Shown: positions 16,708 through 64,000 of the stretch, piece after piece
Layout: every line of letters begins with the position of its first letter
How positions within the stretch are numbered: position 1 is the first letter of the stretch
Origin: Agriterribacter humi
Lineage (GTDB): Bacteria; Bacteroidota; Bacteroidia; Chitinophagales; Chitinophagaceae
Direction: 5' to 3'
DNA length: 64,000 bases
NCBI RefSeq assembly: GCF_009192765.1
Contig: NZ_VOHQ01000001.1
Coordinates: 434,001 to 498,000, forward strand
Notes under the pieces: generated by a model
What the model saw: the letters and a program-made list of their open reading frames with translations, nothing else
Databases searched by the model: none
What the model was told of the DNA's origin: nothing
Program-made: the position numbers and the translations under genes

Positions 16708-17208
16708 CTAAAACCCTCTGTCATCTGCCGAAGGACCGTAAATAGCAGGCACAGGTATATTATTCAGGCGCATGTATACCGTTAATTGCCCGCGATGATG
16801 AACCATATGATTAATCGTTGATTCGATATTTTCCTTTTTAGGAGAACTGTAAAGCAGCTTTCCCTGGTTTTTAAGAGAGAAGGGTTCGGCAAGTTCCCCT
16901 TCTTTAATAAGACTTAATGCTTTTTTTGCGCCCTTCACATTTTCATCAAAATGCGCTACCAGCTCAGCCGCGTTTGTTGGTTTAAAATGTTCAAAACTGG
17001 CAAAATCAATTTCAGATTTCTCGATCATATGTGTGATCCATTTAGGAATTTCCGCCACCAGCAAAGCCAGGTAACCCATGGTCATAGATTTTTCGTGGGG
17101 CTTCCAGTCAAATAAACTTTCAGGGATCCTCTCTAAACATTTACGGGTGGCGGTAACTTCTGCTTCCAGTTCTTTTACAAATGCTTCGCTAAAAATGGCA
17201 TCGGTCAT
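16708..17208 (-). CDS. DinB family protein
   Basis: 166 residues forming the four-helix DinB/YfiT-type bundle. The metal-binding pattern is seen as His in LVAHFDENV-like helix 2 and the C-terminal NHMVHHRGQL, which gives the closely spaced His residues usual in this family. Members act as metal-dependent thiol transferases or have unknown small-molecule roles. It is one of three DinB-type genes in this window (others at 18969 and 41470). It is divergent from the NmrA gene with 273 bp between the starts. No neighbour fixes the substrate. Confidence 0.85.
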   Translation of the reverse strand: MTDAIFSEAFVKELEAEVTATRKCLERIPESLFDWKPHEKSMTMGYLALLVAEIPKWITHMIEKSEIDFASFEHFKPTNAAELVAHFDENVKGAKKALSLIKEGELAEPFSLKNQGKLLYSSPKKENIESTINHMVHHRGQLTVYMRLNNIPVPAIYGPSADDRGF

Positions 17209-18538: not shown

Positions 18539-18763
18539 TGTTTAGCTTTTGGGGAAATAAAATGCCGCTTCGCCAGGATTGGGCTTACACACTTTTGCTT
18601 CTCATTGAACATTAATGAAGGTTGGGTCGCCTGCTAGTCCGGCCGATACGTTTTTGATCATGTGTTAGTGTGCCGCGCAGCACTGTTATTGTTACATGGT
18701 GTGAGTGGGCTATGCAGCTAAGTACCACCAACAATAGAATACCAGGTAAATGTCTGTCGCAGC

Positions 18764-18824
18764 CAACCCCTTAAATTGCCGTATTTATACCCTAACAAAA
18801 CCATTTAATGGTATTAGGTTTGTC
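18764..18824 (+). promoter_or_regulatory. putative AraC-regulated promoter (copy A) for the DinB-VOC genes
   Basis: CAACCCC, then AAATTGCCGTATT at 18773-18785, then CCC, and a perfect -7 box TAGGTTTG at 18815-18822 within TAGGTTTGTC. The same elements occur at 21241-21300 with the identical 43-base offset between the AAATTG block and AGGTTTGTC. There is no TTTG -33 element, as expected when an activator bound at the upstream block replaces it. Transcription would run rightward, giving a leader of about 140 nt before the DinB gene at 18969. Confidence 0.6.
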
Positions 18825-18848
18825 GTACTATATTGAATTTTCCAATCA

Positions 18849-18944
18849 ATGCTGGCAGGTGCATTGAACAATAGTGAACAGAACCCCGAATGGAGCGCCG
18901 CAACAGGTGATCCTAAAAAAACCAATGCTGGAACAATAGAATAA
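18849..18944 (+). CDS. possible 31-codon leader peptide or gene remnant
   Basis: An ATG frame of 31 codons (MLAGALNNSEQ... ending NAGTIE) lies in the predicted leader of the DinB mRNA. Its stop falls within the repeated word CAATAGAATAACCAGG, which also covers the NmrA stop. It could be the tail of a lost gene, a leader peptide or chance; composition is protein-like but there is no family match I know. Confidence 0.25.
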   Translation: MLAGALNNSEQNPEWSAATGDPKKTNAGTIE

Positions 18945-18968
18945 CCAGGTAACAAACAAATTAAAAAT

Positions 18969-19466
18969 ATGGAAACAAAAACAGTCAGCAACCGGATGTT
19001 TTCTATTGTTGTGTTGTATGATATGCAGACAACTTTTTTCGCGAATGCCATTGAAGGACTTTCTGATGAAGACAGGCATAAGCGGCTGAATACAAAAGCC
19101 AATCATGTTGCCTGGCTTACCGGAAGCCTGGTTGAACAGCGCTACGAAATTGCGAATATACTGGGCGCTGATCTTAAACAGTCGGCGCATGAGCTTTTTA
19201 AAGACAATAAGGGTATACAGGATGATGTTGTTTATCCTTCGCTGACCGAATTTAAAAAAGACTGGGAAAACATTACGCCTGTTTTAAGAGAAGCGCTGAT
19301 CAGTGCAGACGATAAAAAACTCGATGAATCTTTTGAGATGATGCCGGGAATGAGCATGACCTATTATGATCTCATCTCTTTTTGTTCTTATCGTGAAGCG
19401 AACTGCATCGGACAGATCGCGCTATGGCGGAGGCTGTTGGGTTATCCGGGAATGAAATATAATTAA
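18969..19466 (+). CDS. DinB family protein
   Basis: 165 residues. Four-helix bundle: helix 1 with MFSIVVLYDMQTTFFANA, then NHVAWLTGSLVEQRYEIAN, which carries the first metal-binding His, and a C-terminal helix EANCIGQIALWRRLLG. The final His pair seen in other DinB proteins is replaced here by SYREANCIGQI, so metal binding may be altered; the protein is closer to the DfsB-like branch. The upstream promoter block shared with the regulator region places it in the AraC regulon proposed here. The VOC gene follows 120 bp downstream and may be co-transcribed. Confidence 0.78.
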   Translation: METKTVSNRMFSIVVLYDMQTTFFANAIEGLSDEDRHKRLNTKANHVAWLTGSLVEQRYEIANILGADLKQSAHELFKDNKGIQDDVVYPSLTEFKKDWENITPVLREALISADDKKLDESFEMMPGMSMTYYDLISFCSYREANCIGQIALWRRLLGYPGMKYN

Positions 19467-19586
19467 ACAGATGGCGCATATAGCACAAGGCAAACGGAAT
19501 GACAGGAAACAATAGTCAATGTTACCTGTGGAAGTACTATGGATTTCGCTGAATTTATTTATACCCAAACCAAAATAAACCCAACC

Positions 19587-20000
19587 ATGTCAACCAAAAT
19601 ATTCGTGAATTTACCCGTAAAAGATCTCAACAGGTCCATAAAATTTTTCACTCAACTGGGATTTAGTTTTAATACGCACTATACCAACGACCAGGGCGCA
19701 TGCATGATTGTGAGTGAGGATATATTTGTAATGCTGCTTGTAGAAAAATTCTTTAAAACATTTACCAAAAAACAAGTTGCCGATGCTACCAAAAGTACGG
19801 AAGCCATCCTGGCATTGTCGGCCAACAGCAGGGAAGAAGTAGATGAACTCGTAAGCAAGGCGCTGAAAGCAGGAGCAACAATCCCAAATCAGAAACAGGA
19901 CCAGGGATGGATGTACGGCCACGGCTTCCAGGATTTAGACGGACACCTGTGGGAAACCATTTATATGGATTCGAAGGCGATTCAGCAAGACCTGGAATAG
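19587..20000 (+). CDS. VOC family protein (glyoxalase/bleomycin-resistance fold)
   Basis: 137 residues from the ATG at 19587 (MSTKIFVNLPVKD); the frame is open from 19539 but the upstream part is not conserved in character. The paired beta-alpha-beta-beta-beta modules are visible: NLPVKDLNRSIKFFTQLGF at the start and the closing GHGFQDLDGHLWETIYMD. VOC proteins bind a metal and act as glyoxalases, dioxygenases or binding proteins. The family is broad and the substrate cannot be read. It follows a DinB gene and precedes the convergent GlxA/AraC regulator, a grouping common for small accessory operons in this phylum. Confidence 0.85.
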   Translation: MSTKIFVNLPVKDLNRSIKFFTQLGFSFNTHYTNDQGACMIVSEDIFVMLLVEKFFKTFTKKQVADATKSTEAILALSANSREEVDELVSKALKAGATIPNQKQDQGWMYGHGFQDLDGHLWETIYMDSKAIQQDLE

Positions 20001-20135
20001 ATGATTATCGTGAAGCGATTTTTATCCGTCATTAATGTCAATAACGCATAAGCCCGCCATTGGCATCATGCTCATCCCCTGTTTCCTTTAGAAGAAAATG
20101 AAAGATTCAAAACTATCTCCTGTCGAAGACATATA

Positions 20136-21119
20136 CTATGCAGTCAATACTTCTTTATTGTATTTATTTTTATATTCAACAGGCGATAAGCCGGTAACTT
20201 TTCTGAATGTTGTTCTGAAGGCTTTCACATCGTTATAGCCCACTTCATACATCACTTCATTAATGTTTTTACGGCCGGTTTCCAGGTCTTTTTTTGCCGC
20301 TTCAATTTTCACTCTTTGTATATATTCCGTAACCGTATTGCTGGTAGCTTTTTTAAACCTGCGTTCCAGGCTTCTGCGGCCCAGCGCAAACATAGACGCC
20401 AACTGGTCAACGGTTATTTTTTCTTCGAAGTTCTTCTCAATAAATTCCTGGGCTTTTTTCACAGGCTCATCTTTATGCGCTTTCTGTCCTTCGAATATAA
20501 TAAATGGCGATTGGCTGTACCGGTCTATATCAATCATAAATGCTTTGGAAACAAGGATAGCGATATCTCTCCCTGCGTATTTTTCAATAAGGTACAGCAG
20601 CAGGTTTAAAAACGAATAGGCGCCGCCACTGGTATAAATGCCATCGGCTTCTGTCATGATCTTATCATCTACCAGGTTCACATCAGGAAACATACTTCTG
20701 AATTGATTGGCCAACTGCCAATGCGTAGCGCATTGCTTTCCTTTTAACAATCCTGTAGATGCCAGGAAAAAAGAGCCAATGCAAAAACTGGCGAGTTCTG
20801 CTCCCCTGCTGTATTGCTGCAGTATCCAGGGAATAAATGCCTTATTGAGTTCTATAGCTTTTGGCAGGTCGCCATGCATAGCAGGAACAATGATGAGGTC
20901 TGTTTTCGACACCTCACCAACTAAACAATCAGGGCTCACAGTATACAACCCGTTACGCTGGCTTGTTTCCTTAGAAAGTCCTACCAGTTTGATATTAAAC
21001 ATAGGAGATCTCCCCATTGCAGTGAGAAAACCATTCGCTTCGGAAAGTATCTGGTGGGTACCGTCAATATTGGGTAAGCTGCTGTGTCCTAAAGGAACAA
21101 GAATGGATACATGTTTCAT
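20136..21119 (-). CDS. GlxA family transcriptional regulator (DJ-1/PfpI domain plus AraC HTH)
   Basis: 327 residues. N-terminal DJ-1/PfpI-like domain (about 1-190) with a cysteine in ASFCIGSFFLASTGLL at the nucleophile-elbow position, and a C-terminal AraC/XylS DNA-binding domain (about 220-315) with two helix-turn-helix units (LASMFALGRRSLERRFKK and INEVMYEVGYNDVKAFRTTF). Such proteins are one-component regulators in the cytoplasm. It is divergent from the small CxxC protein gene. Two promoters on either side share a 13-base block and spacing, which I propose as its operator. The ligand is unknown. Confidence 0.9.
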   Translation of the reverse strand: MKHVSILVPLGHSSLPNIDGTHQILSEANGFLTAMGRSPMFNIKLVGLSKETSQRNGLYTVSPDCLVGEVSKTDLIIVPAMHGDLPKAIELNKAFIPWILQQYSRGAELASFCIGSFFLASTGLLKGKQCATHWQLANQFRSMFPDVNLVDDKIMTEADGIYTSGGAYSFLNLLLYLIEKYAGRDIAILVSKAFMIDIDRYSQSPFIIFEGQKAHKDEPVKKAQEFIEKNFEEKITVDQLASMFALGRRSLERRFKKATSNTVTEYIQRVKIEAAKKDLETGRKNINEVMYEVGYNDVKAFRTTFRKVTGLSPVEYKNKYNKEVLTA

Positions 21120-21240
21120 CCGTATATTTTTTGTTTTTTATTTTTTGTCGGATGGGACGCCCTTAGGCATTCCCTTGTGTGAAAAGCTCTTTATACGCGC
21201 GTTTCATAGGGTAAATGTAAAACATTCTTTTGTCGTAATC

Positions 21241-21300
21241 AACCCCCGAAATTGCCGTATTAACCCCCGCATTTGTTGCCTCAGGGATAGTAGGTTTGTC
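21241..21300 (+). promoter_or_regulatory. putative AraC-regulated promoter (copy B) for the CxxC protein
   Basis: CAACCCCC, AAATTGCCGTATT at 21249-21261, CCCCC, and the -7 box TAGGTTTG at 21291-21298. The 43-base offset from the first block to AGGTTTGTC equals that of copy A at 18.8 kb. It points rightward; the expected start of transcription falls at or next to the ATG at 21304, so the mRNA would have almost no leader. It also sits in the divergent region of the regulator gene and could serve autoregulation. Confidence 0.62.
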
Positions 21301-21303
21301 TTA

Positions 21304-21567
21304 ATGATAGAAGTGTTCAAAACCAATGTTTGCGACCGCTGTGATGCCAATATGCTAATTGAACAGATACAACAATCTTTCTTTAATTACCAGGTTAATT
21401 TCGACCTTGAAGATTGTGATCGGATTCTTCGTGTGAAATGCATAACAGGAACAATACAATCCGCTTTGCTCATAGATTTTTTAAAAAATCTTGGATTTGA
21501 TGCTGAAGTATTACCTGATGAAATTCCTTTTGCCGGCCGTAGCAGTATTGATACAATAACCCTGTAA
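21304..21567 (+). CDS. small heavy-metal-associated-like (HMA-fold) protein with CxxC
   Basis: 87 residues. The opening MIEVFKTNVCDRCDANM carries a CxxC pair (Cys10, Cys13) in the loop where HMA/copper-chaperone folds bind metal. The remainder (strand, helix, strand, strand IDRILRV-like DRILRVKC, helix, GFDAEVLPD) fits a beta-alpha-beta-beta-alpha-beta fold. Many Bacteroidota relatives lack the CxxC, so metal binding is uncertain for the family but possible here. The frame is open far upstream, but the antisense overlap with the regulator and the promoter at 21291 fix the start at 21304. Function unknown. Confidence 0.7.
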   Translation: MIEVFKTNVCDRCDANMLIEQIQQSFFNYQVNFDLEDCDRILRVKCITGTIQSALLIDFLKNLGFDAEVLPDEIPFAGRSSIDTITL

Positions 21568-62678: not shown

Positions 62679-64000
62679 TCAGTTGTCTGATGTACTAAAT
62701 TTCACTACCCAGAAATCTCCCCCGCCATTGTTGGCGCCTACATCGCCTTTATTATTCGTGTAGGTAGATCCAACTGCAATGCAATTGCCGTCTTTGGTTG
62801 CACTGATGCTATACAATTGTTCATCCGAATCGCCACCCATTGTTTTTTTCCATACCACTGTACCATCGTTATTTAAACCCAATATAAAGTAATCAGAACC
62901 ACCCTGGTTATTGTCAACATCACCAATGTTATCGCTTTGTGTATATCCGCCAACTACAATTCCATTATCGTGTACGGCTACGCTGCGCCCGTAATCTGCC
63001 GCGTTGCCACCCAGCGTTTTTTGCCAGATCAGTGCACCCGTTTCACTGTTCACCCGCGTAACCCAGTAATCTTCATTTCCTTTCGACTGTCCCACATCTC
63101 CGCTGTTATTGCTTTTTGTAATACCTGTTGCCACTAAGGTATTATCGCTGCCCACTGCAAGCCCATACAGCGCTTCATTACCTGTTCCGCCAAAGGTTTT
63201 TGACCATACCGTATTGCCATCCCCGGTTAATCTTACCAGCCAAAAATCTATATTGCCTTTTGTGACCGGCACATCGCCATTATTACTGCTGCTGGCATCG
63301 CCGCCTACTATCACGCCTCCATCGGCTGTGGGAATAATTGACCTGGCTTTTTCGGAACCATTGCCACCCATTGTTTTTTTCCAGATGGTATTGCCGTTAT
63401 TGTTTTCCAATGCCACTACCCAATAATCTTCGCTGCCCTGGTTATTGCCCACATCGCCTGTTTGTTTGCTTGCTGTGTACCCTGCCACTACAATAGCACC
63501 CTGGGTGGTGACAGTAATACCGTTAGGGAAATCATCATGGGTGCCGCCCAATATTTTTTTCCAGCGAATATTTCCAGTTCCATCCAGCTTCAGTACCCAA
63601 TAATCCACGCCACCTTTGTTTTCGCCCACATCACCGTTATTGCTGTTGGAGTATCCGCACAATGCATAGCCGCCATCGGGTGTTGCGGCCAGTGAAGCGG
63701 GCACGTCATTGCCATTTCCGCCAAAGGTTTTTTGCCAGGTTAATGCACCGTTGCCATCAAGCTTTATTACCCAAAAATCTATGCCGCCTTTTGTAGCGCC
63801 TACATCGCCATTGGCATTGCTGGAAGTGCTGCCTGCAATCACGTGACTGCCATCGGGCAGGGCAACAACAGAATACGCATACTCATTACCGTTACCACCC
63901 AGTACTTTCTTCCAGGAAATGGTTACATTGTTCACGAAAACAGGTTGCTCTACCACCAGTTGTGCCGGGCTGGCCTGTCCTTCGGTAAGGCTGGCAGTAA
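62679..64000 (-). CDS. secreted seven-repeat beta-propeller-like protein (5' end beyond window)
   Basis: The frame is open to the window edge (LTEGQASPAQLVVEQPVFVNN precedes the first repeat), so at least 440 residues are seen and the N-terminus is missing. Seven repeats of about 58-60 residues follow, each with WxKxxGG, a PDGG-type turn, NxGDVG, and DYWVxKLD. They resemble the W-K-T-x-GG repeats of large surface proteins of Bacteroidota and add up to one seven-bladed propeller. Just before it is a low-complexity or Ig-like segment. There is no type IX secretion C-terminal domain: the protein ends FWVVKFSTSDN. Function unknown, probably a surface or extracellular binding protein. Confidence 0.8.
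   Translation of the reverse strand, partial: TASLTEGQASPAQLVVEQPVFVNNVTISWKKVLGGNGNEYAYSVVALPDGSHVIAGSTSSNANGDVGATKGGIDFWVIKLDGNGALTWQKTFGGNGNDVPASLAATPDGGYALCGYSNSNNGDVGENKGGVDYWVLKLDGTGNIRWKKILGGTHDDFPNGITVTTQGAIVVAGYTASKQTGDVGNNQGSEDYWVVALENNNGNTIWKKTMGGNGSEKARSIIPTADGGVIVGGDASSSNNGDVPVTKGNIDFWLVRLTGDGNTVWSKTFGGTGNEALYGLAVGSDNTLVATGITKSNNSGDVGQSKGNEDYWVTRVNSETGALIWQKTLGGNAADYGRSVAVHDNGIVVGGYTQSDNIGDVDNNQGGSDYFILGLNNDGTVVWKKTMGGDSDEQLYSISATKDGNCIAVGSTYTNNKGDVGANNGGGDFWVVKFSTSDN

Follow-up and report, generated by a model that had tools for sequence, protein, structure and literature searches.

ArgR and SouR of Pseudomonas belong to the GATase-1-like regulators of the AraC family. According to the portions consulted of two reports (PMC5806209, PMC10963909), CdhR and GbdR also count as GATase-1-like, ArgR binds repeated TGTCGCN6GNAA half-sites with 5 bp between them, and CdhR binds GGTCGC half-sites separated by a 15-bp spacer, in a manner similar to that of GbdR, SouR and ArgR. 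For AdpA of Streptomyces, the consulted portions of two further reports state that Arg262 and Arg266 read DNA (PMC8994273) and that Cys62 responds to sulfane sulfur (PMC9952706). In a literature search, outside which most subscription journals lay, we found neither an operator of the type described below nor a description of a Bacteroidota GATase-1-like regulon. We analyzed here a stretch of 64,000 nucleotides of Agriterribacter humi (assembly GCF_009192765.1, contig NZ_VOHQ01000001.1, positions 434,001 to 498,000), which is called the window and is numbered from its first base. Two promoters of the window carry the same paired element, and the gene located between them encodes a GlxA/FtrA-type regulator. 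To our knowledge, there are few Bacteroidota activators with a known operator.

The gene between the two elements encodes a GATase-1-like AraC (GlxA/FtrA-type) regulator. Both elements are predicted to be its operators, and it would act as a class-II-like activator; we assign a probability of about 0.83 to this reading. Since the paired site accompanies one regulator family in many Bacteroidota, the regulator between the sites very probably activates both neighbors.

The paired element and the regulator of the window

The full element is a tandem direct repeat, TGTCGYAATCAACCCC-N6-TGYCGTATTTACACC, with a pitch of 22 bp and a -7 box (TAnnTTTG) located 59 bp past the first GTCG; about 22 weakly conserved bases separate the second repeat from this box. 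The corresponding features of the window are:

20136-21119, minus strand: gene of the GlxA/FtrA-type regulator, 327 amino acids, DJ-1/PfpI domain plus AraC-type helix-turn-helix (HTH) domain (PF01965, PF12833)
18755-18770, plus strand: promoter-distal half-site of the predicted DinB-VOC operator, TGTCGCAGCCAACCCC, fitting the consensus of the named records and of the 85 promoters described below
18777-18792, plus strand: promoter-proximal half-site of the same operator, TGCCGTATTTATACCC, which includes most of the shared block; 22-bp pitch
18815-18822, plus strand: -7 box of the DinB promoter, TAGGTTTG, 59 bp past the first GTCG; predicted start near 18827
21231-21246, plus strand: promoter-distal half-site of the predicted operator of the heavy-metal-associated (HMA)-like gene, TGTCGTAATCAACCCC
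21253-21268, plus strand: promoter-proximal half-site of the same operator, TGCCGTATTAACCCCC
21291-21298, plus strand: -7 box of the HMA-like promoter, TAGGTTTG; predicted start at about 21303, one base ahead of the ATG

The original prediction had described a block and a -7 box shared by both promoters at an identical offset. The block, AAATTGCCGTATT, is indeed present at 18773-18785 and 21249-21261, and TAGGTTTG follows at 18815-18822 and 21291-21298, with 42 bp from the block to the T and 43 bp to AGG in both cases. The block had been taken for the operator, but it represents only the promoter-proximal half, and the upstream half-sites starting at 18755 and 21231 had been overlooked. The C-runs thought to flank it exist but are the ends of half-sites. 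Likewise, neither site has a -33 TTTG at the proper spacing, as had been stated, but the second copy does contain a TTTG (21272-21275), 15 bp from its -7 box.

The exact 12-mer AATTGCCGTATT occurs twice in the 5.69-Mb genome, both times at these promoters. When up to one mismatch was allowed, the block was found at 68 places, and the reversed pattern also at 68. This is chance level; the signal must thus comprise more than the block, and the operator was therefore sought by comparing regulator-adjacent regions. A 13-mer and a 10-mer common at one offset occurred twice in the actual window sequence, once at these promoters, and in none of 40 first-order Markov resamplings. A second pair of this kind lies near 63185 and 63716 and is perhaps a repeat within a coding region.

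The -7 box was placed at -12 to -5, as given for Flavobacterium psychrophilum in the consulted portion of one report (PMC9723704), so that transcription would start at about 18827 and 21303 and the operator would extend from about -72 to about -35. The ATG of the HMA-like gene (21291-21306 region) lies 5 bp beyond the -7 box, and its mRNA would thus be nearly leaderless; at the orthologous locus of the nearest relative, G006, the distance from operator to ATG is 32 bp longer.

The regulator combines an N-terminal DJ-1/PfpI-like domain (PF01965, 3.1e-12) and a C-terminal AraC-type HTH domain (PF12833, 5.7e-20) in one protein. In NCBIfam it matched FtrA (PRK09393) with 8.7e-46 over residues 45-322 and GbdR with 4.9e-33 over residues 56-320. 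The FtrA match reached 156.6 bits at an equivalog cut-off of 425 and the GbdR match was likewise below its cut-off, so the regulator is not one of these proteins. It shows the domain pair and the near full-length similarity, and is accompanied by the tandem G-N-C-G half-sites about two turns apart, that characterize the GATase-1-like (GlxA/FtrA) AraC family. Judged by its sequence, it is a DJ-1/PfpI-AraC protein of the type of ArgR, CdhR, GbdR, FtrA and AdpA.

Co-occurrence of the element with GlxA/FtrA-type regulators in Bacteroidota

The operator was first derived from the DNA upstream of 30 regulator homologues in 58 related genomes, read toward the divergent gene; the tandem repeat is present in most of these regions, and 27 of the genomes contain a homologue at E ≤ 1e-40. 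A sequence-only profile, R1, was built from 22 sites, and nine of the 30 first regulator loci were omitted by eye due to weak half-sites or the lack of a -7 box. A profile of the same training sequences reversed served as control, and all profile searches scored a limited number of candidates per genome. In the 58 relatives, R1 gave 68 listed matches at E ≤ 1e-4 and matched 39 genomes at E ≤ 0.1, whereas the control gave 15 matches in 12 genomes at this latter threshold; the best of them reached 0.0048, and the A. humi genome had none. Matches at E ≤ 1e-4 were present in 25 of the 27 regulator-bearing relatives and in none of the 31 relatives without the regulator; within the family the corresponding numbers were 25/27 and 0/8. 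This absence of strong sites from regulator-free genomes is not built in by the choice of training sites. G006 keeps the element at both positions, and its DinB-VOC site, which was not part of the R1 training, had an E-value of 3.4e-6.

The element is also found farther away. Among 395 Bacteroidota genomes, 64 had an R1 match at E ≤ 0.001 with 12 candidates scored per genome, and in 24 of 27 new loci inspected from these genomes a divergent regulator homologue (50-75% identity) adjoins the site. Furthermore, 80 named records were retrieved via the regulator protein, many of them metagenome-assembled, two (L251 and L253) apparently representing one contig under two names, and at least four (L180, L203, L206, L208) apparently duplicating genomes of the first set. 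After removal of L249, whose upstream DNA was short, a site was found upstream of the regulator homologue in 72 of 79 records, compared with 1 of 79 in one shuffle each, and its pitch was 22 bp in 67 of the 72 (20-24 allowed). The records with a tested site include Niastella, Taibaiella, Spirosoma, Larkinella, Mucilaginibacter, Solitalea, Echinicola, Owenweeksia and Sunxiuqinia. The named records span several classes of Bacteroidota. Cultivable relatives with the module are, for example, Niastella soli (L185) and Taibaiella helva (L208).

For the anatomy of the element, 70 distinct regulator homologues were scored by their half-sites alone (maximum 31, pitch 21-23 allowed). A threshold of ≥ 19 excluded 11 and kept 59 of the 70, a count that is not independent because the scoring consensus was derived from the same kind of site. 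The pitch was 22 bp in 56 of the 59. The -7 box provides an independent count, as it was no selection criterion: TTTG is present at offset 58 or 59 in 45 of the 59 sites, compared with a background of about 1% per position. When 85 distinct promoters were selected on TTTG at offset 59 alone, all of them (85/85) proved to have A as second base of the -7 box. At four loci of other families (L146, L148, L149, L151) the operator is kept and the -7 position is TATAAT- or TATTTA/TTTTAT-like, not TAnnTTTG. At another locus (L046) two stretches upstream of the regulator match the profile, one of them partial and closer to the gene, which suggests operator turnover.

An alignment and a tree were made from 57 homologues with a site score ≥ 19, a length above 300 amino acids and no stop codons. 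R248, R249 and R253 are invariant in all 57, and in the DJ-1/PfpI domain C113 is conserved in 56, C130 in 55 and H133 in 57. Residue 252 goes with the fifth base of the first half-site: it is E in all 47 regulators with G or A at this base and D (nine) or V (one) in all ten with C or T. In the tree of the N-terminal domain this split corresponds to two changes with one well-supported independent pair, that is, essentially to one clade, and is thus only suggestive, a lead rather than a rule. In a mutual-information scan, residue 252 did not rank first at any of the four half-site letters tested, where ancestry probably dominates.

Predicted regulon and target genes

No match in the A. humi genome scores above the two window sites, which reach 52.2 and 51.6 bits. 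A gene follows 16 of the 17 best matches (E ≤ 0.6); half of these 16 are at E ≤ 1e-4, and the other eight are weaker. The genes behind these 16 sites encode four AHSA1 proteins, four RibD_C-like proteins (one below the Pfam cut-off), two alpha/beta hydrolases, two VOC proteins, a DoxX-like and a DUF1801 protein and the two window targets. The full-element profile gave 23 matches at E ≤ 10, eight of them at E ≤ 1e-4, rather than the hundreds of unrelated promoters that had been named as a sign against a specific operator, and the conservation expected in relatives was seen at both positions in G006 and beside homologous regulators in other families. Together with the lack of strong sites in the 31 regulator-free genomes, this supports the proposed small regulon driven by a GlxA/AraC activator, which probably comprises more than two promoters.

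A paralogous regulator is encoded at C8:39631-40605, and its sites are of the GTCC letter type. Of two such sites on contig C8 (C8:39407 and C8:25944), one lies beside this gene and the other 13 kb away; sites and paralogue appear to form another small circuit that is built alike. The sites without an adjacent regulator may be read in trans by the window regulator, by the C8 paralogue or by another protein. Positions 1-68000 of C8 (L116-L119) hold seven operator-like matches, some of them weak, within about 54 kb; their neighbors encode AHSA1, VOC, RibD-like, DoxX-like, DUF1801, ArsR-like and AraC proteins, perhaps a stress-gene island. One genome site (C10:86685) adjoins a gene that is ECF-like by eye.

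The predicted targets in the window are:

18969-19466, plus strand: protein of the DinB/YfiT/mycothiol-S-transferase fold, 165 amino acids (AlphaFold predicted local distance difference test score, pLDDT, 89.9)
19587-20000, plus strand: VOC protein (glyoxalase/bleomycin-resistance fold; PF00903, 2.2e-09)
21304-21567, plus strand: small protein of the HMA fold with the motif EVFKTNV...NFDL.DCD..LR

For the DinB-like protein Pfam gave no family above cut-off. Its best Foldseek matches were DUF664, a putative hydrolase, mycothiol S-transferase and YfiT (E 2.5e-04 to 1.9e-03). DinB proteins usually possess a His triad; this was not evident in the alignment, and we therefore claim no thiol-transferase activity. 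The HMA-like protein had no Pfam match above cut-off either. It had been predicted as a CxxC HMA-like protein, of which the HMA fold was recovered (best E 1.1e-03), but CxxC is confined to the window copy, one of 11 aligned family members, so the metal-binding motif of HMA metallochaperones is not conserved in the family. An HMA-like gene is present at 33 of the 79 named loci.

DinB orthologues (at least 47% identity) were found in A. humi, G006, G012 and G027, all four with a site upstream; of seven distant DinB paralogues none had one. We take the two window targets to belong together. In G176, a member of another family (L154), a single operator precedes the HMA-like gene followed by the DinB orthologue (64% identity), and in Daejeonella oryzae (L240) the operator is followed by a DinB homologue (63%) with the HMA-like gene farther along. 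A second DinB protein (PF05163) is encoded near the cluster at 16708-17208 on the minus strand, with no R1 match in front of it.

Proposed mode of action, alternative explanations and relation to known regulators

In the proposed mechanism, the two subunits would each contact a single GTCG half-site via the HTH domain (R248, R249, R253), so that a dimer would sit on the two direct repeats 22 bp, i.e., two helical turns, apart. The -33 element of Bacteroidota promoters has the consensus TTTG/TTG at a spacing of 17-23. Both window sites have the TAnnTTTG -7 box of the primary sigma factor and lack this -33 element. Among the 85 promoters, a -33-spaced TTG was found in 12 (shuffled mean 8.7) and a -33-spaced TTTG in eight. 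An element that is mostly absent fits an activator substituting for it. Bound between about -72 and about -35, immediately ahead of such a -7 box, the regulator would probably replace the -33 contact, and class-II-like activation is the most likely mode, because the dimer would touch the place that is normally contacted through the -33 element. One operator, at a distance of 111 bp from the start codon of the regulator gene, would drive the HMA-like gene, and the other the DinB-VOC genes. We infer operator binding, activation and autoregulation by the regulator from these patterns; the last is suggested by the location of the operator 18-48 bp from the regulator start codon in 46 of 59 loci. 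As a first guess, the DJ-1/PfpI domain might sense a small reactive molecule, in view of the conservation of C113, C130 and H133 and of the cysteine sensor of AdpA.

Several observations weigh against this reading. Besides the dependence of the half-site count mentioned above, the adjacency of site and regulator for the strongest Chitinophagaceae matches is partly circular, as 21 of the 22 R1 sites adjoin the regulator gene. The association is also incomplete: G022 and G030 possess the regulator and no strong site, the site is absent at seven of the 79 named regulator loci, and 12 of 24 phylum loci have no TTTG at the -7 position. The -33-spaced TTTG, rare as it is, exceeds the shuffled mean of 2.7, and none of 500 shuffles had as many. 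At the DinB orthologues, the G027 site is weak (reached by 10 of 200 shuffles) and the G012 site lies 586 bp from the gene. In the A. humi genome, about 14 further sites face only two close regulators, which makes the reader of the regulator-free sites ambiguous; eight of these sites are weak (E 0.0035 to 0.6), and those on C8, C1 and C11 have ArsR-like genes (by eye) and other AraC genes around them.

The alternative that survives best, though we regard it as rather unlikely, is that the regulator binds as a repressor, or that the sites are mainly autoregulatory, and that targets are switched on by its release. The proximity of the operator to the regulator start codon makes autoregulation likely, and the consulted portion of one report proposes CdhR as a repressor of its own gene (PMC5806209). 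Nevertheless, a constant distance separates the end of the site from the -7 box that follows it, and a -33 TTTG accompanies it in only 8 of 85 promoters, which is the geometry of activation, and the same geometry is kept at target promoters far from the regulator. Less probable still is that another regulator, of the ArsR type or a non-GATase AraC protein accompanying the AHSA1, VOC and RibD-like genes, reads the element and the GlxA-type gene is a bystander. Several genome sites do lie in clusters that contain ArsR-like genes (by eye) or other AraC genes but no GlxA-type gene nearby, and 3 of the 27 phylum loci have no GlxA-type gene within the 1.5 kb examined. In the other 24, however, a GlxA-type homologue is the divergent neighbor, strong sites track this regulator by genome (25/27 vs 0/31), and the half-sites resemble those that the consulted reports give for Pseudomonas members of the same protein family.

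Promoters of ECF41 and ECF42, sigma factors of the extracytoplasmic function (ECF) type, have -35 elements resembling TGTCG and targets of gene types resembling those found here. An ECF-type promoter with TGTCG as -35 and GTCG as -10 is nonetheless very improbable, since TAnnTTTG follows at a fixed 59 bp, its second base being A in all 85 promoters, and an AraC-type regulator, not an ECF sigma gene, adjoins the site in 24 of the 27 phylum loci. Chance or a recent functionless duplication can practically be dismissed: the block by itself is no more frequent than by chance when one mismatch is allowed, but the stretch between operator and -7 box has diverged between the two window copies while boxes and spacings were kept, and the element recurs at both places in G006 and beside homologous regulators elsewhere.

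The analysis yields a predicted operator whose geometry is fixed, together with a named regulator and as many as 16 candidate promoters in a single genome, with a spread over several classes of the phylum. It offers a handle on many AHSA1, VOC, RibD, DinB and HMA-like genes of Bacteroidota whose role is obscure, and a ready test case for class-II-like activation at TAnnTTTG promoters. A wider idea, which we put forward only tentatively and consider doubtful at present, is a Bacteroidota-wide stress regulon with sensing of reactive small molecules by a nearly invariant cysteine pair, -33-less promoters driven from a fixed two-turn tandem operator, and paralogues separated by residue 252 (E for GTCG/GTCA, D or V for GTCC/GTCT). 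If it were true, the regulon of each regulator could be read from sequence.

The system is best read as a Bacteroidota branch of the known DJ-1/PfpI-AraC regulator family. As far as the Pseudomonas proteins ArgR, CdhR, GbdR and SouR are covered by the portions of the reports cited at the outset, they share with it the AraC family, tandem direct half-sites and the TGTCGC/GGTCGC core, and the divergent layout of regulator and target resembles that of cdhR-caiX. The pitch is 22 bp here and 21 bp for CdhR and for the ArgR boxes, and CdhR is described there as class I, whereas a class-II-like mode is proposed here. The window-type half-sites further differ by their extended right parts, AATCAACCCC/ATTTACACC, by the fixed coupling to a Bacteroidota -7 box, and by predicted targets that are small stress-type proteins rather than functions of amine or arginine catabolism. 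FtrA (PRK09393) is the best NCBIfam match to the window regulator, yet the latter is not FtrA itself. AdpA of Streptomyces (PDB 3w6v for the DNA-binding domain) has the same two-domain type. Its RRxxxRR helix, which holds the arginines reported to read DNA, aligns with R248-R254 of the window regulator (numbering matched by eye) and has D in place of E252. AdpA differs in its consensus, TGGCSNGWWY, and in having hundreds of targets.

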